NCBI GenBank assembly: GCA_001899305.1
Contig: MKWL01000022.1
Coordinates: forward strand, 229,697 to 265,725
Origin: Thiobacillus sp. 0-1251
Lineage (GTDB): Bacteria > Pseudomonadota > Gammaproteobacteria > Burkholderiales > Thiobacillaceae
Reading direction: 5' to 3'
Length of the DNA: 36,029 bases
Shown here: positions 19,341 to 35,929 of the stretch, one piece after another
Numbering within the stretch: position 1 is the stretch's first letter
Layout: each line of letters starts with the position of its first letter
Notes under the pieces: model-generated
Told to the model about the DNA's origin: nothing
The model's input: only the letters and a program-made list of their open reading frames with translations
Databases searched by the model: none
Made by a program: the position numbers and the translations under genes

Positions 19341-19748
<408 letters not shown>

Positions 19749-19759
19749 GGAGCCTGAAT

Positions 19760-21175
19760 ATGAAAAAGCTATTTGCTTCGTTGGGCCTGATGTTTGCCCT
19801 CCTGTCTCCCAATCTCGTTCTGGCGGAAGACGCGGCCCCGGCCCCGGAAGCGGCTGCGGTCGAATCCGCCGCGCCTGCGATGGCAGCACCGGCTGAGGCC
19901 GCCGCGCCGGCCGCCGAGGCACCCGCACCCGCTCCCGCAGCCGAGGTGCCCAAGCTGGATTCCGGCGCCACGGCTTGGATGCTGACGTCCACCGCCCTGG
20001 TGCTGCTGATGACGATTCCCGGCCTGGCCCTGTTTTACGGCGGCATGGTGCGGAAGAAGAACGTCCTCGGCACCATGATGCAAAGCTTCGCCATCACCGC
20101 CATGATCACGGTGTTGTGGATGGTGGCGGGCTACAGCATCGCCTTCGACACGACGGGGATGGCGAAAGGGGTCACCAACTTCTATTCCTTCTTCGGCAGT
20201 CTTTCCAAGGCCTTCCTGGCCGGCATGGGCAAGGACAGCCTGACCGGCGTCATCCCCGAGTCGGTGTTCATGACCTTCCAGATGACGTTCGCGATCATCA
20301 CGCCGGCCCTTATTACCGGTGCATTCGCCGACCGCATGAAGTTCTCGGCGATGATGTGGTTCACTGGCCTGTGGTCGCTGCTGGTGTACGCGCCGATCGC
20401 GCACATGGTCTGGTCCGGCGACGGCGGCTTCATGTGGGACATGGGCGTGCTGGACTTCGCCGGCGGTACCGTGGTGCACATCAACGCCGGTGTGGCAGGC
20501 CTGGTCGCCGCCCTGGTGCTGGGTCCGCGCCTCGGCTACGGCAAGGAGCCCATGGCGCCGCACAACCTGACCCTGACGGTGATCGGCGCGGCCATGCTGT
20601 GGGTGGGCTGGTTCGGCTTCAACGCGGGTTCCGCGGTGGCTGCCGATGGCCGTGCGGGGATGGCCATGGCCGTCACCCAGATCGCCACCGGTGCGGCCGC
20701 GCTGGGCTGGATGTTTGCGGAATGGATGAGCAAGGGCAAGCCGAGCGTGCTGGGCATCGCCTCCGGCGCAGTCGCCGGTCTGGTGGCCATCACGCCGGCG
20801 TCCGGTTTTGTCGGTCCCACGGGCGGTCTCGTCATCGGCCTCGTCGCCGGCGCGGTCTGCTTCTGGTCGGCCACGTCGCTCAAGCGTATGCTGAAGTATG
20901 ACGATTCGCTGGATGCCTTCGGCGTGCACGGTATCGGCGGTATCGTCGGCGCAATCCTGACCGGCTACTTCGCAGTCGAATCGATCGGCGGCACTGCTGG
21001 CAGCATGGCCCAGGTCGTGACCCAGATCGAAGGCGTGCTCATCACCATCGCCTACACCGCGATCGGCACCTACATCATCCTGAAGGTGCTGGATCTGGTC
21101 ATGGGCCTGCGTGTGACCGAAGAACAGGAACGCGAGGGTCTGGACATCGCCCTGCATGGTGAACGTGTAGAGTGA
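19760..21175 (+). CDS. amtB: Ammonium transporter AmtB
   Basis: A 471-residue ammonium channel of the Amt/Rh family with 11 expected helices. The signature VVHINAGVAGLVAALVLGPR carries the first pore histidine and the nearby Asp (VLDFAGG). The second pore histidine is in FGVHGIGGIVGA. A cleavable signal peptide is visible (residues 1-23, ending VLAEDA). An Ala/Pro/Glu-rich low-complexity segment of roughly 40 residues follows before the first helix (TAWMLTSTALVLLMTI). That periplasmic spacer is longer than in E. coli AmtB. The start is the ATG at 19760 with GAGGAG upstream. The operon ends at the hairpins at 21184-21249. Confidence 0.95.
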   Translation: MKKLFASLGLMFALLSPNLVLAEDAAPAPEAAAVESAAPAMAAPAEAAAPAAEAPAPAPAAEVPKLDSGATAWMLTSTALVLLMTIPGLALFYGGMVRKKNVLGTMMQSFAITAMITVLWMVAGYSIAFDTTGMAKGVTNFYSFFGSLSKAFLAGMGKDSLTGVIPESVFMTFQMTFAIITPALITGAFADRMKFSAMMWFTGLWSLLVYAPIAHMVWSGDGGFMWDMGVLDFAGGTVVHINAGVAGLVAALVLGPRLGYGKEPMAPHNLTLTVIGAAMLWVGWFGFNAGSAVAADGRAGMAMAVTQIATGAAALGWMFAEWMSKGKPSVLGIASGAVAGLVAITPASGFVGPTGGLVIGLVAGAVCFWSATSLKRMLKYDDSLDAFGVHGIGGIVGAILTGYFAVESIGGTAGSMAQVVTQIEGVLITIAYTAIGTYIILKVLDLVMGLRVTEEQEREGLDIALHGERVE

Positions 21176-21249: not shown

Positions 21250-21467
21250 CATTGGCCGCCTCATGGCTGCAGCGACACGCGTTCGCGGCCGGTCTGCGCC
21301 GTCCTGATTGAAAGCTTGCCGCTTGGGTGGCGTGCTGCGCGTACCTTTCAAGAACGCCAAAACAGTGCGTTTGCGCACTAAAAGAATGCTCGCAGGATGC
21401 TGGAAGTACAGGGGTTTTCTGCTGATTTTTCCTTTTTATTCATGGTGATAGATGTGGGTTGATGGTG
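21250..21467. other. Control region upstream of the ABC/guanidine operon
   Basis: No gene is seen. It holds the AGTGCG/CGCACT inverted repeat (21364-21379) and the overlapping NtrC-like site (21375-21389). T-rich tracts follow between 21414 and 21440. No guanidine-I, -II or -III riboswitch pattern was recognised. Confidence 0.5.
21375..21389 (+). promoter_or_regulatory. NtrC-like binding site of the ABC/guanidine operon
   Basis: GCAC-TAAAAGA-ATGC keeps the GCAC-N7-GTGC geometry with one mismatch and has the A-rich centre of strong NtrC sites. It lies 79 bases upstream of the -24 element. It overlaps a perfect 6-bp inverted repeat, AGTGCG/CGCACT (21364-21379). Confidence 0.5.
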
Positions 21468-21483
21468 TGGCATGGGGGTTGCT
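21468..21483 (+). promoter_or_regulatory. Sigma-54 promoter of the ABC/guanidine operon
   Basis: TGGCATG-GGGG-TTGCT is an essentially ideal -24/-12 element with exact GG-N10-GC spacing. The predicted start falls near 21493-21495, right at the left edge of the 25-bp inverted repeat. Confidence 0.85.
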
Positions 21484-21490
21484 AATTAGG

Positions 21491-21515
21491 AAGTGAATAT
21501 TACGAATATTCACTT
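21491..21515. repeat. Perfect 25-bp inverted repeat at the predicted transcription start
   Basis: Two 11-base arms (AAGTGAATATT and AATATTCACTT) flank the centre ACG and match exactly. It starts 8 bases after the -12 box and ends 29 bases before the first ATG. It could be the operator of a local repressor, for which the NikR-like protein of the same operon is a candidate, or a stabilising hairpin at the 5' end of the mRNA. Confidence 0.8.
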
Positions 21516-21544
21516 TGGTAATACCCAACATCAAGGAGCCCACC

Positions 21545-22543
21545 ATGAATGTGAAGCATCTCGGCAGCACCCTGAAGTCTTTGTTCATCCGGCTGGTGAT
21601 CCCCGCTGCCGCCGCCCTGTCCATTTCGGCCCACGCAGCCCAGCCGCTCAAGATCGGCTACAGCGACTGGCCGGGCTGGGTCGCCTGGCAGGTCGCCATC
21701 GACAAGGGCTGGTTCAAGGAAGCCGGCGTCGCGGTCGATTTCGAATGGTTCGACTACTCCGCGTCGATGGACGCTTTCGCGGCCGGCAAGATCGATGCCG
21801 TGACCATGACCAACGGCGACGCCCTGGTGACCGGGGCGGCCGGCGGCAAGAGCGTCATGATCATGCTGACCGACTATTCCAACGGCAACGACATGATCGT
21901 CGCCAAGCCCGGCATCAAGTCGCTGAAGGATCTCAAGGGCAAGAAGGTGGCGGTCGAAGAAGGCCTGGTCGAGCACCTGCTGCTGCTCAACGGCCTCAAG
22001 AAGGCCGGCATGAAGGAATCCGACGTGACCCTGGTCAACGCCAAGACCAACGAGATGCCGCAGGTCCTCGCTTCCGGCGACGTTGCCGCGGTCGGCGCCT
22101 GGCAGCCGATCGCCGGCCAGGCCATGAAGGCCGTACCCGGATCGCGTCCGGTCTATACCTCGGCCAACGAACCCGGCCTGATCTACGACGTGCTTGCCGT
22201 CAGCCCGGCCAGCGCCAAGCAGAACAAGGCCGAATGGGCGAAGGTCGTGAAGGTCTGGGACCGCGTCGTCCACTACATCAATGATCCCAAGACCCAGCCC
22301 GACGCAGTGAAGATCATGGCTGCCCGGGTCGGCGTCACGCCGCAAGTCTATCTGCCCCTGCTCAAGGGAACCCATCTGCTGAGCCTGGCCGACGGCAAGA
22401 AGATCTATGTCAAAGGACCTGGCTTCGCGTCGCTGCATGGCTCCTCCAAGGTGGCTGACGACTTCAACGTGGCGAACGGGGTCTACAAGGCGCACCAGGA
22501 CATCGACAGCTACCTCGATTCGTCTTTCACCAACGCCAAGTAA
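21545..22543 (+). CDS. NitT/TauT-family ABC transporter substrate-binding protein
   Basis: A 332-residue periplasmic binding protein. A signal peptide spans residues 1-32 (ending SAHAAQ). The mature protein begins with [23 protein letters not shown], the typical start of NitT/TauT (SsuA/NrtA-like) type II binding proteins. An inter-lobe motif ([19 protein letters not shown]) follows. The ATG at 21545 has AAGGAG 7-12 bases upstream and is the first gene of the operon. Family members bind nitrate, sulfonates, bicarbonate or amines. Sequence alone does not tell the ligand. The downstream carboxylase and deiminase genes, and the known link of this transporter group with guanidine riboswitches in other bacteria, favour guanidine or a related cation. 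Confidence 0.88.
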
Positions 22544-22563
22544 AACCGGAGCACGGAGCGGAA

Positions 22564-23529
22564 ATGAGCACGACTTCCAAATGGCTGGGCAGCGTGGATG
22601 GGGATGCGCGCAAACGCATGCTGCTGGGAATCGGCTCGTTTCTGCTGCCATTGCTGGTCTGGTGTCTGGTCAGCTATGTGCCCTTCGTTTGGCATCCCAA
22701 GGTACACGTCATCGATCCTGGCGGCGTGGACTATTTCCAGGTCGATATGCTGGTCGACAAGACCATGTTCGCGGATGAAGTCGCCAACATGGAACGCGAG
22801 CACCTGGCTGTTCCGACCGGAAAATCCGCCAACCCGATCTATCTGCCGGCGCCCGATCAAGTGGCGAGGGCTTTCTACAACGGCTTCGTCAATCCGCCCC
22901 AGAGCAAGGACGTGCCCTCGATGCCGGCCAGCCTGTGGCACAGCATCCAGATCATTTTCTGGGGTTTCCTGATCTCGTCGATCGTCGGCGTGCCGCTGGG
23001 CATCCTGTCCGGCACCTATACCCTGATGGGACGGCTGAGCGAGCCGTTCATCGAATTCTTCCGCTATCTGCCGGCGCCGGCCTTCGGCGCCCTGGCAGTG
23101 GCCATCCTCGGCATCTACGATGGGCCCAAGATCGCCATCATCGTCATCGGCACCCTGTTCCAGCAGGTGCTGATCATCGCCAATACCACGCGCAAGCTGG
23201 AGGTCACCCTAATCGAGGCCGCCCGCACCCTGGGCACGCGCAATATCAAGCTGCTGAGCAAAGTGGTGGTGCCCGGCATCCTGCCCGATCTGTATCGCGA
23301 CCAGCGCATCCTGCTTGGCTGGGCCTGGACCTATCTGATCGTCGCCGAGCTGATCGGCACGAGTTCCGGCATCACCTGGTTCATCACCCAGCAGGCGCGC
23401 TACCAGCATTTCGACAACGTCTATGCCGCCATCATGACCATCGGCATCATCGGCTTCGGCACCGACCTGATCCTGGCCCGGCTCGGCCGCCGTCTGTTTC
23501 CCTGGGATCGCACCCAGGATCGCCGCTGA
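22564..23529 (+). CDS. ABC transporter permease (NitT/TauT type)
   Basis: A 321-residue inner-membrane permease. A first helix (about residues 21-41) is followed by an unusually long extracytoplasmic stretch of about 80 residues. The BPD_transp_1 core then follows, with helices from about residue 120 to 310. The EAA loop that docks on the ATPase is visible as [28 protein letters not shown]. Most SsuC/NrtB-like permeases lack such a long loop after helix 1. It starts 20 bases after the binding-protein gene and is followed 11 bases later by the ATPase, forming one importer. The ATG at 22564 has a GGAGCGGAA ribosome site. Confidence 0.9.
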
Positions 23530-23540
23530 GGAATCCCGCC

Positions 23541-24452
<912 letters not shown>

Positions 24453-24456
24453 TGCG

Positions 24457-25236
24457 ATGAAGTGGTCCGATCTCACCTGGTCCGAAATTCCCGACGTGCT
24501 GGCCCGCTGCGGACATTCCGCCATCCTGCCGGTCGGCGCGACCGAGCAGCATGGCCCGCATCTGGGAACGGGCGTCGACTTCGTGATCGCCGAGCATCTC
24601 TGCGCCGCCGTTGCCGCGCAGACCGGCGTGCCCATGCTGCCGACGCTGCCGTACGGCTGCTCGCTCGGCCACAGCCGGCGCTGGCCCGGCACGATCGCGC
24701 TGCCGCCCATCACCCTCATCGAACTCGTCAAGCAGATCGGCGACTGGGCGTATCACGGCGGCGTCCGCCGACTGTTCATCGTCAATGCGCATGTCACCAA
24801 CGCCGCGCCGCTGCGCTGCGCCTTGGAGATGCTGCGCGCCGAACACGACGACCTGATGGTCGCGGTGATCAACACCGCGACCCTGAGCGAACGCGTGCGT
24901 GAATTCCACGCCGCCGACGCCGCCGACTGGCACGCCAACGACGCCGAGACCTCGATCATGCTCGCCATCGCCCCCGAGGGCGTGCGCCCGGACAAGCTCG
25001 CCGAAGCCGACGATCCCGACCGCACCTGCGGCTGCATTTTCGCGCATCCCGTTAACCGCACCAGCCTCAACGGCGTCACCGGCACGCCCAGCCTGGCCAG
25101 TGCCGAGAAAGGCCAGCGCTGGTTCGACTGGCTGGTCGACGACCTCGCTGCGCTGGTTCGCACCGGCAGCGTCGAGACGCCGCCGCTGGCCCACTCCTAT
25201 TTCGGGGACGCCGTCCCCGCCGCCACCACCCGATAG
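24457..25236 (+). CDS. Creatininase-family metal-dependent amidohydrolase
   Basis: A 259-residue member of the creatininase fold, cytoplasmic (no signal). The likely metal ligands are E30 and H32 in [10 protein letters not shown]41 in GTGVD, H112 in NAHVTN, and E164 in WHANDAETS. The NGHGGN/NGHYEN motif of characterised members is replaced by NAHVTN, so substrate and metal site may differ from true creatininase. Family members hydrolyse creatinine or formamide-like amides, and also include MftE and FAPy deformylase. The place between an ABC importer and nitrogen-assimilation enzymes suggests a cyclic or acylated guanidino/urea compound as substrate. That is inference. Confidence 0.82.
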
Positions 25237-25249
25237 ACAAGGACGCATC

Positions 25250-26662
25250 ATGAACACGATCGACGATACCGCCGTACTGGAAAAACCGGACAGCAGTGCC
25301 CATCATCCGGCCGAAGCGACGGCCCAACTGCAGCGCGAGCTGATAGCCAAGGGCGTCAAGTACTGCATCGGCGCCTACGTCGACATCCACGGCGTGCCCA
25401 AGGCCAAGGTCGTGCCGATCGGCCATCTCGGCCAGATGGCAAAAGGTTCCGAGCGCTACACCGGCTACGCGCTGGATGGCCTCGGCCAAGCGCCCAACGA
25501 CGACGAGCTGACCTCGGTGCCGGACCTCGACCGCGCCATCCAGCTGCCGTGGGAACCGAAGATCGCCTGGATTCCGGCGGACAACCATTTCCAGGGCAAG
25601 CCGTATGCGCTCAACACCCGCGTCGCGCTGAAGAACCAGCTGGCCGAGGCGGCCAAGCTCGGCTATGGCATGAATCTCGGCATCGAGTGCGAGATCTTCC
25701 TCCTGAAGCAGAACGAGGACGGCAGCCTGTCGGTCCCGGTCGCCGATGACAAGCTGACCAAGCCCTGCTACGACGTGCGCGGCTTCGTCGACAACTTCTC
25801 CTGGCTGGACAAGGTGGCGACCACGATCAACGACCTCGGCTGGGACCTGTATTCCTTCGACCACGAGGACGCCAACGGCCAGTTCGAGTTCGACTTCAAC
25901 TACGCCGATGCGCTGACCACCTGCGACCGCCTGACCTTCTTCCGCTTCATGGCCAAGCACTACGCCAAGGAAGAGGGCCTGCTCGCGACCATGATGCCCA
26001 AGCCCTTCGCCGACAAGACCGGCAACGGCGCCCACTTCAACATGTCGATCTACGACCTTGCGACCGGCAAGAACCTGTTCGCCTGCGCGCCCGAGGACGA
26101 TCCGCACGGCATCGGCCTGACCCCACTCGGCTACAGCTTCGTCGCCGGCATCCTCAAGCACGGCCGCGCGCTGTGCGCGGTGTTCGCGCCGACCGTGAAT
26201 AGCTACAAACGCCTGGTGCGGCGCGGCGCCATGAGCTACTTCTCGTGGGCGCCGGTGTTCAACTCCTGGGGCTCGAACAACCGCACCAACTCCGTACGCA
26301 TCCCGGCCGGCGGCGGCCGCTGCGAATCGCGCAATGCCGACGGCGCGGTGAATCCCTACCTCGCCGCCACGCTGGTGCTGGCCGCCGGCCTCGAAGGCAT
26401 CCGCGAGGGGCTGAACCCGGGCAACCCGAACGAGGACAACCTGTACGCGATTTCCGAAGAAGAGCGCCGCGCGCGCGGCATCGCGTTCCTGCCGCAGACC
26501 CTGCAGGAGGCGGTCGCCGCCTTCGCCGCCGACCCGCTGGTCGAGGCCACCCTGGGCACGGAGCTGCGCGACGAATTCGTCCGCTACAAGACCGAGGAGT
26601 GGGAGGCCTACCACCTCGCCGTCAGCAAGTGGGAAGTGGAACGCTACAGCTACATGTTCTGA
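25250..26662 (+). CDS. glnT: Type III glutamine synthetase (GlnT-like)
   Basis: A 470-residue ligase of the GlnT branch, joining glutamate and ammonium (or another amine) with ATP. Visible parts are an N-terminal beta-grasp region ([18 protein letters not shown]), the metal-ligand motif [23 protein letters not shown], the ATP/Mg loop [16 protein letters not shown], and [11 protein letters not shown] with [17 protein letters not shown]. No adenylylation-site tyrosine segment of the GlnA type was recognised. The ATG at 25250 follows AAGGA by 7 bases. GlnT relatives include gamma-glutamylmethylamide synthetase, so the acceptor could be an amine instead of ammonium. The simplest reading is assimilation of ammonium released by the downstream pathway. 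Confidence 0.87.
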
Positions 26663-26665
26663 ACC

Positions 26666-27133
26666 ATGAAGCCGAACCGCCTGGACAGGCCTGCCACCCT
26701 CGTCAGCCGCATCAGCGTTTCGCTGCAACCCGACCTGCTGTCGGAACTGGACGGCATGGTGGAGAGCCGCGGCTACGACAGCCGCTCGCAGGCGATCGGC
26801 GAAATGGTCCAGTACCAGCTGGCCGAGCACAAGCGGTCGCTCGGCAACGAAGTCATGGCCGGCACGCTCACGCTGCTTTACAACCGTTCCACGCGCGGCC
26901 TGCAGGGGCGGCTGGCGGACCTGCAATACCAGTACATCGCCGAGGTGGTCAGCTCGCTGCACGTGCACCTGACCGAGGACCGCATGCTGGAGGTGCTGCT
27001 GGTGCAGGGACCGGCCGCCAGGTTGCAGGCCATCAGTGACGAAATGCTCGCCCAGCGCGGCGTCATCACCGGACGGCTGGAATTGCTGGCGGCGGTGATC
27101 CCGCCGCTGCATGCGCCCGGCGGCGCCCCATAA
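26666..27133 (+). CDS. NikR-like ribbon-helix-helix regulator with an incomplete nickel site
   Basis: A 155-residue protein with a NikR layout. An N-terminal ribbon-helix-helix (SRISVSLQPDLLSELDGMVESRGYDSRSQAI split at residues 14-44) is followed by an ACT-like ligand domain ending in MLAQRGVITGRLELL. E. coli NikR uses H76, H87, H89 and C95 for nickel. The ungapped match here gives Y88, H99, H101 and M107, so two of the four ligands are replaced. It may bind another metal weakly or sense something else. It starts 3 bases after glnT and lies before UAAP1, so it is an operon-local regulator. The 25-bp inverted repeat at 21491-21515 is a candidate operator. The C-terminus has an extra Pro-rich tail. 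Confidence 0.8.
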   Translation: MKPNRLDRPATLVSRISVSLQPDLLSELDGMVESRGYDSRSQAIGEMVQYQLAEHKRSLGNEVMAGTLTLLYNRSTRGLQGRLADLQYQYIAEVVSSLHVHLTEDRMLEVLLVQGPAARLQAISDEMLAQRGVITGRLELLAAVIPPLHAPGGAP

Positions 27134-27152
27134 TCTAACGACTGGATTTCAT

Positions 27153-27890
27153 ATGGCACAAGACATCAACCCCATTCCCCCGGCGCTGTTCCTGTGGGAA
27201 GAAGCTCTGCCCGGCGGCTGCCACTGGTCAGGCATCGTCCGCCGCGGCAACGCGCTCAGGCTGACCGATCTCTCCGGCCGCGCCAACGTCTCGGCGCTGT
27301 TCTACAACGCCGAGGAGAAGCTCGAGCGCTACAACATGCCCGACACCCTCAAGGCGCAGCACACTGCGCACCTGACGACGGGCCACGCGCTCTATTCGGA
27401 CATGGGCCATGTGCTGTGCTCGGTCATCCACGATACCTGCGGATGGCATGACACCGTGTGCGGCACCAGCGACGCCGGGACGGTGAAGGCGAAGTACGGC
27501 GAGGCCACCTACCAGACCCACCGCAACGCCATGCACCGCAACGGCCGCGACGGCCTGCTGGTCGAGTTGGGCAAATGGGGGCTGGGCAAGCGCGACGTGG
27601 TGCCGAATGCGAATTTCTTCAGCAAGGCCGTCGCCGACGACGCCGGCCGGTTGCACTTCGACGCGTCGAGTTCGCGCCCTGGTGCGTATCTGGACCTGCG
27701 CTTCGAGATGAACGTGCTGGTCGTGCTCTCGGCCGCGCCGCACCCGCTCGACCCGCGCCCCGACTATGCGCCGGGCGATGTCATGCTGACCGCGTGGAAG
27801 GCCGGCGCCCCAGGCGCGGATGACGTCTGCCGCAACCACTGTCCGGAAAACCAGCGCGGCTTCTATCAAACCGAAATTCTTTATCGCTGA
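27153..27890 (+). CDS. Urea carboxylase-associated protein 1 (DUF1989; probable carboxyguanidine deiminase subunit)
   Basis: A 245-residue DUF1989 protein, UAAP1. Homologues paired with UAAP2 form the deiminase CgdAB, which turns carboxyguanidine into allophanate and ammonium. Visible family motifs are [29 protein letters not shown], the metal-site segment [12 protein letters not shown] (residues about 103-114), and NANFFSKA. The ATG at 27153 is chosen because the 14 upstream codons are not family-like. It lies 19 bases after the NikR-like gene and 8 bases before UAAP2. The similarity between UAAP1 and UAAP2 (FYNA, DTCG-HDT, N-NFF) shows that they arose by duplication. Confidence 0.88.
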
Positions 27891-27898
27891 GGCCAACC

Positions 27899-28558
27899 AT
27901 GAGCACCTTCAACCTCGTCGAGAGCCCCCTCGATCCCGGCCAGGCCGTGGTCGATGCCGTCGTCAACGCCGGCGATCCGTGGATTCACGAAATCAAAAAA
28001 GGCCAGGTCTTCCGCATCCTCGACCTCGAGGGCAACCAGGCCGTCGACACGCTGTTTTACAACGCGCATGACCCCGAGGAACGCTACAGTTCCACCGATA
28101 CCGTGCGCGCGCAGGGGGCGCTCTACCTCACCGCCGGCACGCGACTGATGTCCAGCGAAGGCAGGGCCATGCTGACGATCACCGCCGACACCTGTGGTCG
28201 TCACGACACCCTCGGCGGCGCCTGCTCGTGCGAAAGCAACACCGTCCGCTATGCGCTGAACAAGCGGCCGATGCATTCCTGCCGCGACAGCTTTCTGCAT
28301 GCGCTCGCGCATTACGACGGCGGCCTGACCAAGCGCGACATCACCAGCAACATCAACTTCTTCATGAACGTGCCGGTGACGCCAGAAGGGGGCCTGACCT
28401 TCGCCGACGGCGTGTCGGCGCCCGGCAAGTACGTCGAGATGCGCGCCGAGATGGACGTGCTGTGCCTGATCTCGAACTGCCCGCAATTGAACAACCCCTG
28501 CAACGCCTACAACCCGACGCCGATCCGGGTATTGATCTGGGACGTACCAAGCCAATAA
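27899..28558 (+). CDS. Urea carboxylase-associated protein 2 (DUF1989; probable carboxyguanidine deiminase subunit)
   Basis: A 219-residue DUF1989 protein, UAAP2, partner of UAAP1. It has [22 protein letters not shown], the metal-site segment [19 protein letters not shown], and [11 protein letters not shown] followed by [19 protein letters not shown]. The conserved Cys/His set (DTCGRHD and the later CPQ-NNPC) fits a metal-bound active site. The ATG at 27899 is 8 bases after the UAAP1 stop, with a TGAGG near the overlap. A 70-base GC-rich spacer with a CGGGACGGCCCGCCG-type repeat separates it from the carboxylase gene, which could fold and tune expression of that long gene. Confidence 0.88.
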
Positions 28559-28628
28559 CAAACAATAATCCACGGCGGGACGGCCCGCCGCGGAGACTGC
28601 ACGCGGGACGACCCGCAAGGAAGCCAAC

Positions 28629-31600
28629 ATGTTCGACAAGGTTCTCATCGCCAACCGCGGCGCCATCGCCTGCCGCATCATCCGCACCCTCCGCCGCATG
28701 GGGGTGAAATCGGTCGCCGTCCATTCCGAGGCCGACCGCCATTCGCTGCACGTGCGCCTTGCCGACGAGGCGGTCGAGATCGGTCCGGCGCCCGCCGCGC
28801 AGAGCTATCTGCGCGGCGACAGGATTCTGGATGCAGCCCGGACCACCTGCGCCCAGGCGATCCACCCCGGCTACGGTTTCCTCTCCGAGAATCCCGGCTT
28901 CGCCGAGGACTGCGCCGCCGCCGGCATCGCCTTCATCGGCCCCAGCCCGGACCAGATGCGCGCCTTCGGCCTCAAACACACCGCGCGCGACCTGGCTGAG
29001 CACAACAAGGTGCCGCTCCTGCCCGGCTCCGGCCTGCTGTCCGACGCCGGCCACGCCCAGGCCGAGGCCGCGCGGATCGGCTATCCGGTGATGCTGAAAA
29101 GCACGGCCGGCGGTGGCGGCATCGGCATGCGCCTGATCTGGAGCGCCGACGAGCTGGTCGAGGCCTTCCAGTCGGTCGAGCGGCTGGCGCGCGCCAACTT
29201 CAAGGAAGCCGGCATCTTCCTGGAGAAATATGTCGAGCACGCACGCCACATCGAGGTGCAGATCTTCGGCGACGGCCGTGGCCGAGTCGTCGCGTTGGGC
29301 GAGCGCGATTGTTCCGTTCAAAGACGCAACCAGAAAGTCATCGAGGAAACCCCGGCGCCCGGCCTCACCGATGCGCAACGGTCGAACCTGCTCACCACTG
29401 CGGTGCGCCTCGGCGAAGCGGTCGGCTACCGTTCCGCCGGCACGGTCGAGTTCGTCTACGACACGCAGAGCGGCGAGTTTTATTTCCTCGAAGTGAACAC
29501 GCGGCTGCAGGTCGAGCACGGCGTCACCGAGGAAGTCACCGGCGTCGACCTGGTCGAATGGATGGTGCGCGAAGCCGCTGGCGAGCTCGATCTGACCGGC
29601 TTCAGGGCCGAACCGCAAGGCGCCTCCATGCAGGTGCGGCTCTACGCCGAAGACCCGGGCAAAGATTTCCAGCCCGCCGCCGGCGTGCTGACCGAGGCCG
29701 TGTTCCCGGCGGACGCGCGTATCGAAACCTGGGTCGAGCGCGGTTCCGACGTGCCGCCGTTCTACGACCCCATGGTCGCCAAGATCATCGTCAAGGGCCG
29801 CGACCGCGCCGAGGCGCTGGAAAAAATGCAGCAGGTGCTGGCCGGTACCCGTGTCGCCGGTATCGAGACCAATCTCGGCTACCTCGGCCAGATCGTGCGC
29901 GACAAGGTGTTCGCCGAAGGCCGTCAGACCACGCGCTACCTCAACGCCTTTCACTACCGGCCGGCGACGGTCGACGTGATCGAGCCTGGTGTGCAGTCGA
30001 GCATCCAGGACCGGCCCGGCCGCACCGGCTATTGGGACGTCGGCGTGCCGCCGTCCGGGCCGATGGACGCGCTGGCGCTGCGCCTCGCCAACAAACTGGC
30101 CGGCAATGCCGAAGGCACGGCCGCGTTGGAACTGACCGTGGCCGGCCCCACGCTGCGCTTCAACTGCAACAGCGTGATCGCGCTCGGCGGCGCCGACATG
30201 GGTGCCGAGCTCGACGGGCAGCCCTTGGCCAATTGGGCCGCACATGCGGTGAAGAGCGGCAGCCTCCTCAAGCTCGGTGCGATCCGAGACACCGGCTGCC
30301 GCACCTATCTCGCGGTGCACGGCGGCTTCGACGTGCCGGACTACCTCGGCAGCAAGGCGACCTTCACCCTCGGCCAGTTCGGCGGACACGCCGGGCGCAC
30401 GCTGCGGGTCGGCGACGTGCTGCACATTCCGGCGGCCGAGGATGCGGCCATCGGGGACGTACTGCCGGCAGCGTTGATTCCGGCCTATACCAACGCCTGG
30501 GACATTGGCGTGCTCTACGGCCCGCACGGTGCGCCGGATTTCTTTACCGACGCCGACATCGAGATGTTCTTTTCCACCGACTGGGAAGTGCATTACAACT
30601 CCAGCCGCACCGGCGTCCGATTGATCGGCCCGCGCCCCCAGTGGGCGCGCAAGGACGGCGGCGAGGCCGGACTGCACCCGTCCAACATCCACGACAACGC
30701 CTACGCCATCGGCGCGGTCGATTTCACCGGCGACATGCCGGTGATCCTCGGCCCGGACGGCCCCAGCCTCGGCGGCTTCGTCTGCCCGGCCACCATCGTG
30801 CAGGCCGAGCTGTGGAAGATGGGGCAACTGCGCCCTGGCGACACGGTGCGTTTCAAGCGTCTCTCGCAGGCGCAGGCCGAGCGTATGGAAGCGGCGCAGG
30901 ATGCCGCCATCGCCAGCCTGGTCGTGCCGGCCGCGGTGGTCGCTGATGCGGAGCCGCACGCCGAACCCGTGCTGCATCGCATCCCGGAAACCGACAACCC
31001 CGTCGCCGTCGTCTACCGTCGTGCCGGCGACAAGTACCTACTGGTCGAATACGGCCCGCTGGTGCTCGACCTCAACCTGCGCTTCCGCGTGCATGCGCTG
31101 ATGACGCGGCTGCAGGCCGATGCGGTGCCGGGCATCCTCGACCTCACCCCCGGCATCCGTTCGCTGCAGGTGCACTACGACTCGCGCGTGCTGCCGCTGT
31201 CCCGGCTGATGGATATCCTGCTGGCGGCGGAACAGGCGCTGCCCGCGATCGAGGACATGCAGGTGCCGACCCGTATCGTGCACCTGCCGCTGTCGTGGGA
31301 CGACGCGGCGACGAAATTGGCGATCGAGAAATACATGCAGTCGGTGCGCAAGGACGCGCCCTGGTGCCCCTCCAACATCGAATTCATCCGCCGCATCAAC
31401 GGGCTCGAATCGATCGAGGAGGTGAAGCGGATCGTCTTCGACGCCAGCTACCTGGTCATGGGGCTGGGTGACGTCTACCTCGGCGCGCCGGTGGCGACGC
31501 CGGTCGATCCAAGGCATAGATTGGTCACCACCAAGTACAACCCGGCACGCACCTGGACGCCGGAGAACGCCGTCGGCATCGGCGGCGCCTACATGTGTGT

Positions 31601-32237
31601 CTACGGCATGGAAGGCCCTGGCGGCTACCAGTTCGTCGGCCGTACGCTGCAGATGTGGAACCGCTGGCGGCAGACGGCGGCGTTCACCGACGGCAAGCCA
31701 TGGCTGCTGCGTTTCTTCGACCAGGTGCGCTTCTTCCCGGTGAGCGAATCTGAGCTGCTGAAAATCCGCGAGGATTTCCCGCTCGGCCGCTTCCCGCTGA
31801 AGATCGAGGAAACCACGTTCAGCCTGCGCGACTACAACGCCTTTCTTGCCGACAACAACGCATCCATCACCGCCTTCAAGACGCAGCAGCAGGCCTCGTT
31901 CGACGCCGAGCGCGAGCGCTGGCGTGCCAGCGGCCAGGCCGACTACGCCAACGACCTGACCGTGGCAGAAGCCGCGCCAGACAGCGAACTCGACCTGCCC
32001 GAGAATGGCCGTGCCCTTGCCAGCCACGTCGCCGGCAACGTGTGGAAAGTCGAAGTGGAAGCGGGCGCCGAGGTGAAGCAGGGCGACACCCTCGTCATCG
32101 TCGAATCGATGAAGATGGAGTTCGCCGTGCTGGCGCCGTGCGACGGTCGTGTCCACAAGGTGTTCTGCCGCGAAGGCGGGCAGGTGAGCGCCGGACAGGA
32201 CCTGCTGGTGCTGGTGAGCGAGGGCGGAGCCGCATGA
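28629..32237 (+). CDS. Biotin-dependent urea/guanidine carboxylase
   Basis: A 1202-residue multidomain carboxylase. Biotin carboxylase: residues 1-450, starting MFDKVLIANRGAIACRII, with the ATP loop GGGGIGMR at 161-168 and the EVNTRLQVEH active-site motif. The carboxyltransferase domain (about 455-1120) is built of the KipA-like and KipI-like (AHS2/AHS1) segments, including TGYWDVGVPPSGPMDALALR and DLNLRFRVHALM. The biotin carrier domain ends with VESMKMEF, biotinyl Lys at K1162. Such proteins were long annotated as urea carboxylase. Homologues found with UAAP1/2 act on guanidine. Specificity is not read from the sequence here; the neighbours favour guanidine. It overlaps atzF by ATGA. Confidence 0.93.
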   Translation: MFDKVLIANRGAIACRIIRTLRRMGVKSVAVHSEADRHSLHVRLADEAVEIGPAPAAQSYLRGDRILDAARTTCAQAIHPGYGFLSENPGFAEDCAAAGIAFIGPSPDQMRAFGLKHTARDLAEHNKVPLLPGSGLLSDAGHAQAEAARIGYPVMLKSTAGGGGIGMRLIWSADELVEAFQSVERLARANFKEAGIFLEKYVEHARHIEVQIFGDGRGRVVALGERDCSVQRRNQKVIEETPAPGLTDAQRSNLLTTAVRLGEAVGYRSAGTVEFVYDTQSGEFYFLEVNTRLQVEHGVTEEVTGVDLVEWMVREAAGELDLTGFRAEPQGASMQVRLYAEDPGKDFQPAAGVLTEAVFPADARIETWVERGSDVPPFYDPMVAKIIVKGRDRAEALEKMQQVLAGTRVAGIETNLGYLGQIVRDKVFAEGRQTTRYLNAFHYRPATVDVIEPGVQSSIQDRPGRTGYWDVGVPPSGPMDALALRLANKLAGNAEGTAALELTVAGPTLRFNCNSVIALGGADMGAELDGQPLANWAAHAVKSGSLLKLGAIRDTGCRTYLAVHGGFDVPDYLGSKATFTLGQFGGHAGRTLRVGDVLHIPAAEDAAIGDVLPAALIPAYTNAWDIGVLYGPHGAPDFFTDADIEMFFSTDWEVHYNSSRTGVRLIGPRPQWARKDGGEAGLHPSNIHDNAYAIGAVDFTGDMPVILGPDGPSLGGFVCPATIVQAELWKMGQLRPGDTVRFKRLSQAQAERMEAAQDAAIASLVVPAAVVADAEPHAEPVLHRIPETDNPVAVVYRRAGDKYLLVEYGPLVLDLNLRFRVHALMTRLQADAVPGILDLTPGIRSLQVHYDSRVLPLSRLMDILLAAEQALPAIEDMQVPTRIVHLPLSWDDAATKLAIEKYMQSVRKDAPWCPSNIEFIRRINGLESIEEVKRIVFDASYLVMGLGDVYLGAPVATPVDPRHRLVTTKYNPARTWTPENAVGIGGAYMCVYGMEGPGGYQFVGRTLQMWNRWRQTAAFTDGKPWLLRFFDQVRFFPVSESELLKIREDFPLGRFPLKIEETTFSLRDYNAFLADNNASITAFKTQQQASFDAERERWRASGQADYANDLTVAEAAPDSELDLPENGRALASHVAGNVWKVEVEAGAEVKQGDTLVIVESMKMEFAVLAPCDGRVHKVFCREGGQVSAGQDLLVLVSEGGAA

Positions 32238-34033
32238 GCATCTCGCTCGACATCGCCAGCCTGCGCCGCCGCTATCTATCCGGCGAGCTCACCCCGCTTG
32301 TGCTGGTGGAGGAAATGCTTGCCCGCATGGCTGGCGAGGACAGCCACGCCATCTGGATCAGCCGTCTCGACGCCGATGCGCTGCGTGCCTATGCAGGAAA
32401 TCTCGAGGGTAAGGACATCGACAGCCTGCCGCTCTACGGCATTCCCTTCGCCATCAAGGACAACATCGATCTTGCCGGCTTGCCGACCACCGCCGCCTGC
32501 CCGGAATATGCCTATACGCCGGCGCAACACGCTGCCGTCGTGCAGCGCCTGATCGACGCCGGTGCGATCCCCCTGGGCAAGACCAGCCTCGACCAGTTCG
32601 CCACCGGACTGAACGGCACGCGCTCGCCCTACGGCGCCTGCCGCAACGCCTTCGACCCGGCTTACATCTCCGGCGGCTCCAGTTCCGGCTCGGCCGTGGC
32701 CGTGGCGCTGGGGCTGGCGAGCTTCTCGCTCGGCACCGACACCGCCGGCTCCGGCCGCGTGCCAGCCGCGTTCAACAATCTGGTGGGCCACAAGCCGAGC
32801 TGCGGCGCGCTCTCCACGCGCGGCGTGGTGCCAGCCTGCCGCTCGCTCGATGCGGTGTCCATCTTCGCGCTGACGGCCGAGGATGCCGAGCGCGTGCTGG
32901 CGGTCACCGCCGGCTTCGATGCCGACGACGCGTATTCGCGCCCGCTGGCGCCGTACGGCTTCGACTTCGGCCGCGCGGCCGGTTTCCGTTTTGGTCTGCC
33001 CCGGCAAAAAGACCTGCAATTCTTCGGCAACGCCGACGCGGAACGGTTGTTCGCCGCGTCCGTGGACAGACTGAAATCGCTCGGCGGCACAGCGGTCGAA
33101 ATCGACCTTGGCCCCTTCCTCGACACCGCGCGCCTGCTTTACGGCGGCCCTTGGGTCGCCGAGCGCTACCTGGCCATTCGCGACTTCTTCGACGCACAAC
33201 CGGACACGATTTTTCCGCCCGTGCGCGAGATCATCGCCAGCGGCCGCGACATCAGCGCCGCCGACACCTTCGCCCATCTCTACACATTGCGCGCACTCAA
33301 GCGGACATGCGACGCAGTATGGAACGACATCGACGTGATGCTCACCCCGACGGCGGGGACGATCTACCGCATCGATGACATGCAGGCCGACCCGATCCGT
33401 CTCAACTCCCATCTCGGCTATTACACCAACTTCATGAATCTGCTGGACTTGACTGCTACCGCGGTGCCGGCCGGGTTCCAGAACGACGGCCTACCGTTCG
33501 GCGTCACGCTCATCGCGCCGCCGCACCAGGACGGCCCGCTGCTGCATCTGGCGTCGCGCGTGCAGCAGGCGCTCGGTGGCAAGCTGGGCGCAACCGATCA
33601 CGCGCTGCCACCAGCCGAACCGTTGAGCCTGCTGCCGGATGGCCAGGTGCGGCTGGCCGTCGTCGGCGCCCACCTGAGCGGCCTGCCATTGAACTTCCAG
33701 CTCACCGGACGCAACGCACGCCTGGTGAGCACCACGCAGACCGCCGCCAAATACCGCTTCTATGCCCTGCCAGACGGCAAGCGGCCCGGACTTGTCCAGG
33801 TGCAGGAAGGCGGTGCCGCCATCGCCTGCGAAGTCTGGGAAATGCCCGCCAGCCAGTTCGGCTCCTTCGTCGACGGCATCCCAGCGCCGCTCGGCATCGG
33901 CAAGCTGGAACTGGCCGATGGATCGGTGGTGAACGGATTCATCTGCGAAGGCGTCGGCATGACCGATGCACGGGACATTACGGAATACGGCGGATGGCGA
34001 GCGTGGCTGGCGGCGAGGGGGGATGGCTTCTAA
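32234..34033 (+). CDS. atzF: Allophanate hydrolase
   Basis: A 599-residue amidase-signature enzyme that cleaves allophanate to two ammonium and two CO2. The Ser-cisSer-Lys triad is visible: K75 in PFAIKDNIDLAG, S149 in ISGGSSSGSA, and nucleophile S173 in GTDTAGSGRVPAA. A second domain after about residue 460 (PLSLLPDGQVRLAVVGAHLSGLP) is the C-terminal module of full-length AtzF/DUR1 allophanate hydrolases. Length matches AtzF. The start overlaps the carboxylase stop (ATGA at 32234-32237), so the two last pathway enzymes are coupled. A longer open frame upstream is only a shadow of the carboxylase. It is the last gene of the operon. Confidence 0.93.
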   Translation: MSISLDIASLRRRYLSGELTPLVLVEEMLARMAGEDSHAIWISRLDADALRAYAGNLEGKDIDSLPLYGIPFAIKDNIDLAGLPTTAACPEYAYTPAQHAAVVQRLIDAGAIPLGKTSLDQFATGLNGTRSPYGACRNAFDPAYISGGSSSGSAVAVALGLASFSLGTDTAGSGRVPAAFNNLVGHKPSCGALSTRGVVPACRSLDAVSIFALTAEDAERVLAVTAGFDADDAYSRPLAPYGFDFGRAAGFRFGLPRQKDLQFFGNADAERLFAASVDRLKSLGGTAVEIDLGPFLDTARLLYGGPWVAERYLAIRDFFDAQPDTIFPPVREIIASGRDISAADTFAHLYTLRALKRTCDAVWNDIDVMLTPTAGTIYRIDDMQADPIRLNSHLGYYTNFMNLLDLTATAVPAGFQNDGLPFGVTLIAPPHQDGPLLHLASRVQQALGGKLGATDHALPPAEPLSLLPDGQVRLAVVGAHLSGLPLNFQLTGRNARLVSTTQTAAKYRFYALPDGKRPGLVQVQEGGAAIACEVWEMPASQFGSFVDGIPAPLGIGKLELADGSVVNGFICEGVGMTDARDITEYGGWRAWLAARGDGF

Positions 34034-34156: not shown

Positions 34157-35119
34157 TCAAAGATCGTCCAGTGGGCTTGTACCGGTTTTCATGGCCTGAT
34201 TTACATGCGTATAGATCATCGTCGTTTGAAGGCTGCGATGACCCAGGCGTAACTGGATTGTTCGGATGTCCGTGCCAGAAGCCAGCAGATGCGTAGAAAA
34301 GCTGTGACGAAGCGTATGGACACTCGCGTGCTTATGAATCCCTGTTCGGTGTAAAGCTTGTTTAAATGCCCGCTGGATCGTTGAGTCTGACGCGTGCCAG
34401 CGCACCATTCGGCCTGAGTCACCCCAGGGCCGCAATACGGCGGACGGAAGACGAACTGCCAGGAAAAAGTGGATGAGGCTGACGGGTACTTCTTGGCCAG
34501 CGCATTCGGCATAGGCGCCAGGCCCGCGCCCTGGGCCAGGTCCTCCTTGTGCAGAATCGCTACCCTGAGCAGATGCTTTTCCAGGGGGCCGCATAATTGC
34601 GCCGGCAGGACGCTAGTCCGGTCTTTGCTCCCTTTGCTGTCTCGGATGTTGACCGTCCTGGCTCCCAGATCAACGTCCTTGACCCTGAGCGTGACACATT
34701 CATGCACCCTGAGACCTGCCCCATAAATCAGCTCAGACATTAATTGTGTCGTTCCTTCCATCAATCCCAGAACTGCCTTGGTCTCTTGCTTGGTCAGTAC
34801 CACCGGAACACGATGACGCTGCTGTACCCGTTTGAGGCCTGTCATTTCCCCTAAAGGCTTGGACAAGACGCTCTCATACAGGAACACCACGGCATTCAAT
34901 GCCTGGCTTTGGGTTGAGGCAGAAACTCGGCGCTTGATCGCCAGATGATTCAGGAAGGATTCGACATCACTGGAGCCAAGTTGGGCTGGGTGCTGCTTGT
35001 TGTGAAACAGGATGTATTGCCGGATCCAGTAGCGGTATGCCTGTTCGGTTCGCTGGCTGAAATGCCGGCGACGGCAGACGACAGAGACTTGATCAAGCAG
35101 ACGGGGTTGCTGACCCCAT
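34157..35119 (-). pseudogene. intI: Integron integrase (IntI), disrupted by two apparent single-base indels
   Basis: A tyrosine recombinase of the integron type on the minus strand. The N-terminal SAM-like region (RTEQAYRYWIRQYILFH, then QHPAQLGSSDVESFLNHLA) and the catalytic domain are present: [39 protein letters not shown] (R, H-x2-R, H, Y). The IntI-specific patch [15 protein letters not shown] is also present. Two breaks are seen. Near 34446 one C of the minus strand is missing, so FVF(P) shifts frame before [21 protein letters not shown]. At the 5' end the ATG (35119-35117) is out of frame by one base in a GGGG run; losing one G restores MGQQPRLLDQV. Each break is in a short homopolymer, so sequencing error is possible. 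Confidence 0.88.
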
Positions 35120-35267
35120 GACTTTCACTCCTTTTGTGATGAAAAAAAGCACAGGGTAGGGTAGACCGAGGAAGCCAGGCTAGCTGTCAGTATTATTGGG
35201 GGTTATTATACGGACGCATGAAAACAAAAACGATTAAGAATCAGGAGGATATGTGGTTATGAGGGAC
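35120..35267. other. Presumed attI/leader region of the integron
   Basis: This is where attI and a cassette promoter are expected, between the integrase start and the first attC-like hairpin. No protein-coding frame of note is seen. A 12-base copy of TTATACGGACGC (35206-35217) recurs inside the attC-like hairpin (35284-35295), so it may be a remnant of a second recombination site. A promoter was not assigned with confidence. Confidence 0.45.
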
Positions 35268-35321
35268 GCCCTAAATAATAATGTTATACGGACGCTGATG
35301 TCCGTATATTAACTGTTAGGC
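35268..35321 (+). other. attC-like recombination site
   Basis: The right end is GTTAGGC (35315-35321), a canonical GTTRRRY core. The left end, GCCCTAA (35268-35274), resembles the partner core GCCTAAC imperfectly. Between them TATACGGAC/GTCCGTATA (35285-35293 with 35300-35308) forms a perfect stem with loop GCTGAT. Flanking GTTA/TAAC pairs with unpaired bases, like the extrahelical bases of attC. The cassette ATG follows 6 bases after the core. Confidence 0.7.
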
Positions 35322-35326
35322 AACTC

Positions 35327-35929
35327 ATGCATACCTTGGCTAAGTTCCTTTTCTTCTTGGCAAGCGCTGTCACGGTGGTCGTGATTAGCGCTTTCCTTTT
35401 CGTCGGTCTTGTCGGTGACAGCGAAAAAGCCACCTTTGCTCTTGGCTGGTTGTCTACCGTTGCCATTGCCGTCTGGCTTTCGGTCGCTGGCATCTTAGTC
35501 CTTCTGATGGCCACTACTGCAAAGGCAGGCCAAGCCAAGCTAATTGGAACGCACTCGTTCTACGAATGGGGCATTTTGGCCCTATTGCTGCTATTGGCTG
35601 CACACTTCATCAACTCAAGTTACTCGTCCGTATGGAGTGGAGTGACAGATCGTTGGTATTCCAGCCCCGTGTGGCCGATGCTGACACTCTTGGCGGGGCT
35701 GACCGCTCTAGTTGCTGGCGTTGCTCTGCTACTGAGGCACAAGTGGTCGTTGCAGCTGTTGCTGGTTGCAGTTCTTGCCCTCTTCCTTAGGTCAAACTAC
35801 GAGACTGTCCCTATGTTTCAAGCGATGCCATTCACCGCTTTCTTCGTCGGTGCTGGTATCAAGAATTTTGCGGCGATGATCGTGCTTGCCTCATATGTCT
35901 ATCTCAGGAAAAGTCAGTCAAATGCCTAA
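35327..35929 (+). CDS. Integron gene cassette: multi-pass membrane protein of unknown function
   Basis: A 200-residue protein starting 6 bases after the GTTAGGC core site, as cassette genes usually do. Its stop codon TAA lies inside GCCTAAC, the start of the next attC. About six hydrophobic segments are seen (residues about 5-28, 38-62, 80-95, 110-132, 138-155, 165-190). There is no signal cleavage site and there are no known catalytic motifs. Codon use is less GC-rich than in the rest of the window (many TTG, CTT, AAT codons), consistent with horizontal transfer. No clear ribosome site precedes the ATG. The function is unknown. Resistance, transport and stress roles are all possible. Confidence 0.75.
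   Translation: MHTLAKFLFFLASAVTVVVISAFLFVGLVGDSEKATFALGWLSTVAIAVWLSVAGILVLLMATTAKAGQAKLIGTHSFYEWGILALLLLLAAHFINSSYSSVWSGVTDRWYSSPVWPMLTLLAGLTALVAGVALLLRHKWSLQLLLVAVLALFLRSNYETVPMFQAMPFTAFFVGAGIKNFAAMIVLASYVYLRKSQSNA

Follow-up and report, generated by a model that had tools for sequence, protein, structure and literature searches.

A Thiobacillus guanidine operon with a predicted NikR-derived switch at its promoter and a guanidine-II-like element before its carboxylase gene

Most of what is known about guanidine control concerns riboswitches, and a 36,029-nucleotide stretch of Thiobacillus sp. 0-1251 (contig MKWL01000022.1, positions 229,697–265,725; hereafter the window) raises the question of what a relative of the nickel repressor NikR is doing in a ten-gene operon for guanidine degradation. 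The explanation that we favour, and consider probable on sequence grounds, is that this is a nitrogen-starvation guanidine operon controlled by a NikR-derived switch at its promoter and by a guanidine-II element inside it. The parts of the explanation for which the sequence argues are the pathway genes, the carboxylase signature, the internal riboswitch, the sigma-54 element, the operator and its link with the regulator, and the loss of the nickel site.

An earlier note on this DNA had read a guanidine pathway in the operon, a reading that is upheld by the Asp/Asp signature of the carboxylase and by the guanidine-II-like riboswitch before its gene. The carboxylase gene (28629–32237, + strand; TIGR02712, 1919.8 bits) was assigned by the rule that guanidine carboxylases have an Asp at the equivalent of K. 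lactis residue 1330, which is Asn in urea carboxylase, and a second Asp at 1584; the available text of a review (PMC12186494) likewise states that urea carboxylases have Asn where an active-site Asp otherwise stands. Residue D698 of the window protein is aligned to the first signature position, an Asn in the K. lactis structure 3va7, and D948 is the second signature Asp (the numbering offset was derived from the ranges of 3va7 and 5i8i). Where the loci cover them, the Asp is kept at the D698 position in 63/63 and at the D948 position in 65/65. The same strand encodes the 2 subunits of carboxyguanidine deiminase, UAAP1 (27111–27890; TIGR03425, 359.9 bits against a cut-off of 206) and UAAP2 (27899–28558; TIGR03424, 351.4 bits against a cut-off of 285), and the allophanate hydrolase AtzF (32234–34033; PF01425 and PF21986; TIGR02713, 803.7 bits). 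Because both signature aspartates are present and a guanidine-II-type riboswitch precedes the carboxylase gene, we read the sequence as that of an operon which almost certainly serves guanidine assimilation and not urea. In a sample of the order, a carboxylase is encoded in 7 of 8 genomes with an orthologue of the NikR-like protein (own genome excluded) versus 44 of 300 overall, counts that are uncorrected for kinship.

The riboswitch element (28572–28616, + strand) immediately precedes the ribosome-binding site of the carboxylase gene and lies in the 70-bp gap at 28559–28628, which the earlier note had correctly given as the largest of the operon while overlooking its content. Guanidine-II (mini-ykkC) riboswitches consist of 2 short hairpins with ACGR loops and conserved pairing, and the hairpin loops of the element are ACGG and ACGA. 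We designate it guanidine-II-like because its score against Rfam RF01068 is under the gathering threshold; scanning the entire window with Rfam at that threshold gave no match, with the element falling just below. A model of our own, built from 5 relatives above the Rfam threshold, gave 38.4 bits. In an alignment of 41 sequences (39 distinct, window included), 97.4% of the pairs are kept and 9 of the 12 pairs have two-sided changes; none of 500 shuffles paired as highly, and sliding the structure abolished the signal. This alignment favours the structure, as it draws on 43 chosen sources whose matches, to E 0.0001, were fitted to the model. With matches counted to E 0.0071, our model also finds the element in 30 of 31 complete ten-gene operons, the exception being locus L040. 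The sequence evidence gives us high confidence that the internal element is genuine.

The regulator gene (26666–27133, + strand) had been labelled NikR-like, a label that holds for homology and fails for the nickel-sensor site, which has been lost. The protein has the ribbon-helix-helix plus NikR_C architecture (PF01402 and PF08753, both over cut-off) with full-length NikR homology; among the NikR equivalog models, NF003381 (113 against 105) and NF002815 scored over their cut-offs and TIGR02793 under its own. No other NikR-family protein was found in its genome, and its clade is separated from ordinary NikRs with 100/99 support in a tree of 112 rows and few columns. The nickel ligands of Escherichia coli NikR are given in the available part of PMC7055735 as H87, H89, C95, and H76; the window protein has Y, H, H, and M at positions 76, 87, 89, and 95. 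Among 87 clade members, C95 is kept in none, H76 in 6, H89 in 80, and H87 in 86, whereas the ordinary NikRs from the comparison loci have all four ligands in 22/22. A distant member (L179), in which H76 is present and H87, H89, and C95 are lost, was kept out of the 87. The low-affinity residue E30 is replaced by Q in 94% of the clade, a clade-specific Glu stands at E. coli position 81, and His76 has mostly become Tyr, Cys, or Phe. By this ligand test, we do not class the regulator as a nickel regulator.

Promoters linked to the regulator share the motif [AG]TATTAC-N14-GTAA[TC]A upstream of the gene for the substrate-binding protein (SBP). The predicted operator of the window, ATATTAC-N14-GTAATAC (21497–21524), spans about +3 to +30 relative to the inferred sigma-54 start and is the sole strict site in the genome. 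At a gap of 14, 70 of 75 regulator-linked promoters carry the operator (57 with no mismatch, 11 with 1, 2 with 2), versus 11 of 1620 mononucleotide shuffles within 2 mismatches. Across 1.45 Mb of loci, the strict motif has 59 occurrences and its reversed control has none. Gaps of 8–20 were allowed in the search, so that the fixed 14-bp gap is not a product of construction. In the 65 promoters with at most 1 mismatch, 6 core positions per half-site carry 1.4–2.0 bits and every spacer position carries less than 1 bit; the half-site conservation is partly by construction, because the profile took promoters already within 1 mismatch. For the promoters outside the 70, loci L169 and L172 carry the operator elsewhere (whole-locus scan), L173 has a variant, L112, judged by eye, keeps the gap of 14 with 2 mismatches, and the fifth, L062, is taken up below. 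Left out of the promoter counts were L128, L129, L130, L133, and L134, which repeat the same genomes, and loci without a usable binding-protein match.

In a whole-genome search over 48 handles, the strict motif turned up in 18 of the 25 that have the regulator and in 2 of the 23 that lack it. Two of the 18 are the same genome, and G160 has only a site within an open reading frame (ORF) far from the operon; the 2 occurrences without the regulator are in G637, at the expected promoter, and in G146, inside another ORF. From these sequence patterns, it is very likely that the regulator acts at the predicted 28-bp operator. In addition, G166 has another strict operator, accompanied by a sigma-54-like element, before a cytosine/purine-family permease gene (PF02133; L183, 2798–2825), which suggests a wider regulon, and G466 has a second operator upstream of the carboxylase gene itself (L172, 4338–4365). 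A 25-bp perfect palindrome, AAGTGAATATTACGAATATTCACTT (21491–21515), overlaps the left operator half-site of the window and is retained in many Thiobacillaceae-like and Gallionellaceae loci; its 17-bp core has 1 exact place in the genome and 1 further place with 3 mismatches. We rejected the palindrome as the operator, since only closer relatives have it, while the motif GTATTAC-N14-GTAATAC extends to distant ones.

The description of the operon as nitrogen-controlled is borne out as far as sequence can do so. The -24/-12 element TGGCAT-GGGGG-TTGCT (21468–21483, + strand) has the GG(N10)GC pattern of a sigma-54 promoter and is the sole strict match in the window; in 66 of 71 promoters, a sigma-54-type match precedes the operator by no more than 45 bp. 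A candidate NtrC site, the enhancer-like inverted repeat GTGCGTTTGCGCAC (21365–21378), lies 103 bp upstream of the element. Of 68 promoters, 17 have the pattern GTGCR-N4-YGCAC at a distance of 76–112 bp ahead of the sigma-54 element, and it was found in none of 20 shuffles of each. According to the available part of PMC5491218, the urea carboxylase transcript was 6-fold lower in a Burkholderia cenocepacia ntrC mutant; in the same table, an associated periplasmic protein and an aminomethyltransferase are marked na(m).

What the regulator may be doing at this promoter emerged from 18 genomes that were picked by the creatininase-like protein of the operon, a choice that avoids selection by the regulator: 10 came from the order sample of 300 (E up to 1e-40) and 8 more from a class sample of 369 (E up to 1e-45). 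Where the regulator is present (10/18), the promoter carries the operator or a variant of it in 10/10 and a guanidine-I match in none; the site is strict in G000, G025, G116, G466, G484, and G531. Where it is absent (8/18), a guanidine-I riboswitch stands directly before the SBP gene in 6 (G014, G182, G261, G458, G579, and G366). Fisher's exact test gave p = 0.0006, with G637 counted against, G136 omitted, and kinship uncorrected. A guanidine-I match was found in 0 of the 31 complete ten-gene loci. A family search for relatives of G014 yielded 2 of 22, both already among the known ones. The idea that regulator and guanidine-I exclude each other genome-wide was rejected, as guanidine-I occurs elsewhere in the regulator genomes G047, G226, G196, G160, and G166; the swap is therefore limited to the promoter. 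In G531, the strict site precedes the hydrolase gene, the SBP gene has a site with 1 mismatch, and the regulator (39% identical) is encoded elsewhere on the contig. The hydrolase-ligase pair and binding protein of that genome (L171, 3876–10947; L186) stand beside desaturase-, metallo-hydrolase-, isomerase-, and DMT-like genes (named by eye), and the permease-ATPase-regulator-guanidine block occupies another part of that contig. From the promoter comparison, we lean towards the view that the regulator functionally replaces the guanidine-I riboswitch; that its effector would be guanidine or a close metabolite is a suggestion to which we give, at best, an even chance.

In the mechanism that we propose, nitrogen starvation would lead to the import of guanidine, the presumed importer substrate, and to its breakdown via carboxyguanidine and allophanate to ammonia. 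Transcription would start at the sigma-54 promoter, probably activated by NtrC. The NikR-derived regulator would bind directly to the 28-bp operator, over or just past the start site, and would probably act as a repressor, to be released by guanidine or by a metabolite whose level follows it; the guanidine-II riboswitch would then control how the carboxylase is translated. Where related operons lack the regulator, the promoter slot is usually taken by a guanidine-I riboswitch.

Several observations weigh against this proposal: (i) the internal element scored 30.8 bits against RF01068 (E 0.00059), below the gathering threshold of 32; (ii) 4 of the 10 operators in the regulator genomes picked by hydrolase are variants (G191, G047, G196, and G424); (iii) among the 8 without the regulator, G637 has the operator with no regulator found in its 91% complete draft, and G136 has neither operator nor guanidine-I; (iv) the compared genomes are phylogenetically non-independent; (v) L062 has both the regulator and guanidine-I, and no operator; (vi) the strict motif is missing in 7 of the 25 handles with the regulator, and the reversed control matches in 8 of 48; and (vii) in 8 loci, an importer-hydrolase-ligase-regulator block with the operator stands apart from a carboxylase block that carries guanidine-I, so that the regulator might sense a signal other than guanidine.

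The last point leads to the alternative that survives best, although we think it unlikely: the regulator would sense another imported compound, for example an acyl- or alkylguanidine that the hydrolase and ligase process to guanidine, and the guanidine genes would lie downstream of it. Besides the 8 separate carboxylase blocks with their own guanidine-I riboswitch, 10 loci have a convergent guanidine block and 10 have no guanidine gene matched downstream. A carboxylase is over the cut-off in 24 of 27 regulator genomes, in pieces in 2, and missing from 1; these 27 comprise 22 whose locus is without a forward guanidine block and 5 with it. The substrate of creatininase is, moreover, a cyclic acylguanidine. 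Against this alternative, a close module without the regulator (L123, whose SBP, hydrolase, and ligase are 81–83% identical) is headed by guanidine-I, and some regulator operons lack the hydrolase and ligase (L065 and L074). The available text of PMC12508155 describes the guanidine-I class of Vreelandella as specific for guanidine over methylguanidine. A second alternative, that the regulator has remained a sensor of nickel or some other metal and adjusts a metal-dependent hydrolase, draws on the full-length homology, the NF003381 score, and the retention of H87 (86/87) and H89 (80/87), but the loss of C95 (0/87) and H76 (6/87), each kept in 22/22 ordinary NikRs, and the change of E30 to Q make it improbable. 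An ordinary urea-degradation operon with incidental regulator and riboswitch, as the names of the TIGR02712 and UAAP models would have it, is highly improbable given the guanidine signature residues and the covarying guanidine-II element.

Returning to the guanidine operon that we favour, 2 of its enzymes bear names that do not fit. The earlier note took the creatininase-family amidohydrolase (24457–25236, + strand; PF02633) as a hint of a creatinine-like substrate, which is not supported: the protein scored 117.2 bits against a cut-off of 235 for the creatininase model TIGR04448, and 122.3 bits against TIGR03964, the model of the mycofactocin peptidase MftE, below the cut-off of 172. Aligned with a true creatininase, the protein has no counterpart of the E122 region or of some of the W174–H178 loop, which hold functional residues of creatininase. 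A different substituted guanidine may still be the substrate. Residues E30, H32, D41, H112, and E164, which we take to be the family metal residues, are conserved in all of the 77–80 loci covering them. By the family cut-offs, this creatininase-like protein is not a creatininase.

The second enzyme, "GlnT" (25250–26662, + strand), had been called a glutamine synthetase III; the family stands, as TIGR03105 (type III glutamate-ammonia ligase) scored over its cut-off, and the ammonia-binding Asp50 does not, its position being Thr in 82/82 loci covering it. The nearest structures are the glutamate-methylamine ligase 9qur (E 2e-114) and 7cql (E 1e-99); glutamine synthetase structures follow more weakly, at E 6e-73 and beyond. 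Although 7cql was deposited as a type III glutamate-ammonia ligase, we take it for RhGmaS, since the residue numbers given in PMC7948447 agree with it. The available text of that paper describes gamma-glutamylmethylamide synthetase (GmaS) as lacking Asp50, having Trp300 in place of the Glu-flap glutamate, and using Asp177 and Glu186. The window residues T71, W333, D204, and E213 occupy the GmaS-type positions and do not vary among the 82 or 85 loci that cover them. By these residues, "GlnT" is a GmaS-like glutamate-amine ligase. Ammonium capture within the operon, which the earlier note had proposed for it, is unlikely because the protein lacks Asp50 and resembles GmaS. The hydrolase and ligase are an accessory pair; with low confidence, we suggest that they may form and split an N-acyl guanidine, gamma-glutamyl guanidine for instance.

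The Pfam and NCBIfam models confirmed the 10 + strand genes at 21545–34033 and the families named for them, with refined starts and with gaps of 3–70 bp or small overlaps. The first 3 genes encode the NitT/TauT-type (NMT1/SsuA) periplasmic SBP (21545–22543; PF09084 and PF13379), the ABC permease (22564–23529; PF00528), and the ABC ATPase (23541–24452; PF00005), whose start is the first ATG candidate past the permease gene. The best NCBIfam model for the SBP, TIGR03427, scored 158 bits, below the cut-off of 334, and a PDB search gave no match up to E 1e-10. A search for the same gene order, proposed in the earlier note, was made on the best 80 of 445 loci found with a profile of the NikR-like protein. 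The complete set, identical in order and strand, is present in 31 of the 80, and this recurrence is far beyond chance. In 10 loci, the first 6 genes face the convergent guanidine block, and 10 others have the first 6 genes without a matched guanidine gene downstream, one of which (L063) has an allophanate hydrolase gene upstream. The remaining 29 are cut or variant, including the 2 operons without hydrolase and ligase. The hydrolase-ligase-regulator genes of L086, and a ligase remnant with the regulator in L091, precede a different importer (26–42% identical) and a guanidine-II-controlled carboxylase.

An amtB-type ammonium transporter gene (19745–21175) lies directly upstream of the operon. 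Just downstream, the region at 34157–34899 (- strand) and 35260–35929 has phage-integrase-family matches in 2 overlapping, apparently frameshifted frames, followed by an inverted repeat, a GTTAGGC-like sequence, and a 200-residue ORF with no Pfam match. Judging by eye, we take this region to be an integron-like integrase with a possible cassette.

More hesitantly, and at somewhat less than an even chance, we propose that a nickel-sensor lineage came to sense guanidine itself or a metabolite derived from it, replacing guanidine-I at promoters of guanidine operons across many proteobacteria; the former nickel site, with its changed positions 76 and 81, would be a new cation-binding pocket. A riboswitch and a repurposed metal sensor would then be exchanged at one promoter slot, and it could be tested how a protein replaces an RNA sensor and what a nickel site turns into. 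The gene and operator predictions extend to cultured bacteria (Thiobacillus thioparus, Parasulfuritortus, and Methylovorus). The proposal would also call for new annotations, as the gene names nikR, glnT, and creatininase mislead in this operon.

Among the literature matches listed, none was seen that joins NikR or creatininase to guanidine control, with Schneider 2020, Sinn 2021, and the Nelson guanidine-I papers lying outside the coverage. PMC7156744 brings NikR, guanidine, and riboswitch together, but in its available text guanidine is a reagent only, and PMC12625717, which combines guanidine and creatininase, reports in its available part that the guanidine genes are absent from its genomes.

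As far as the accessible parts of the sources go, the nearest known systems compare as follows. The window ligase resembles GmaS (PMC7948447) in the missing Asp50, the Glu-flap Trp, and the equivalents of Asp177 and Glu186, and differs in the pocket, where Gln175 has become Ser and Asn188 has become Asp; no N-methylglutamate gene was matched in the window operon. The nickel repressor NikR (PMC7055735) shares the ribbon-helix-helix plus NikR_C architecture and a 28-bp inverted-repeat operator (GTATGA-N16-TCATAC in E. coli), whereas the window protein has lost nickel ligands, has the half-site GTATTAC, and stands with guanidine genes rather than with nickel import. AmtR of actinobacteria (PMC4222082) is likewise a protein that regulates in connection with urea carboxylase genes, in an operon that includes 2 associated reading frames of no assigned function; it is of the TetR type and unrelated to NikR, the word guanidine is absent from that paper, and by analogy it is a precedent for protein control of urea-carboxylase-type operons. 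The guanidine operon of Vreelandella boliviensis (PMC12508155) has the same ABC importer, carboxylase, deiminase pair, allophanate hydrolase, and guanidine-II before the carboxylase. By contrast, it is headed by guanidine-I, where the window operon has a sigma-54 element and a NikR-like operator, and its extra genes encode a methylguanidine hydroxylase and lyase, in place of the creatininase-like hydrolase and GmaS-like ligase of the window.

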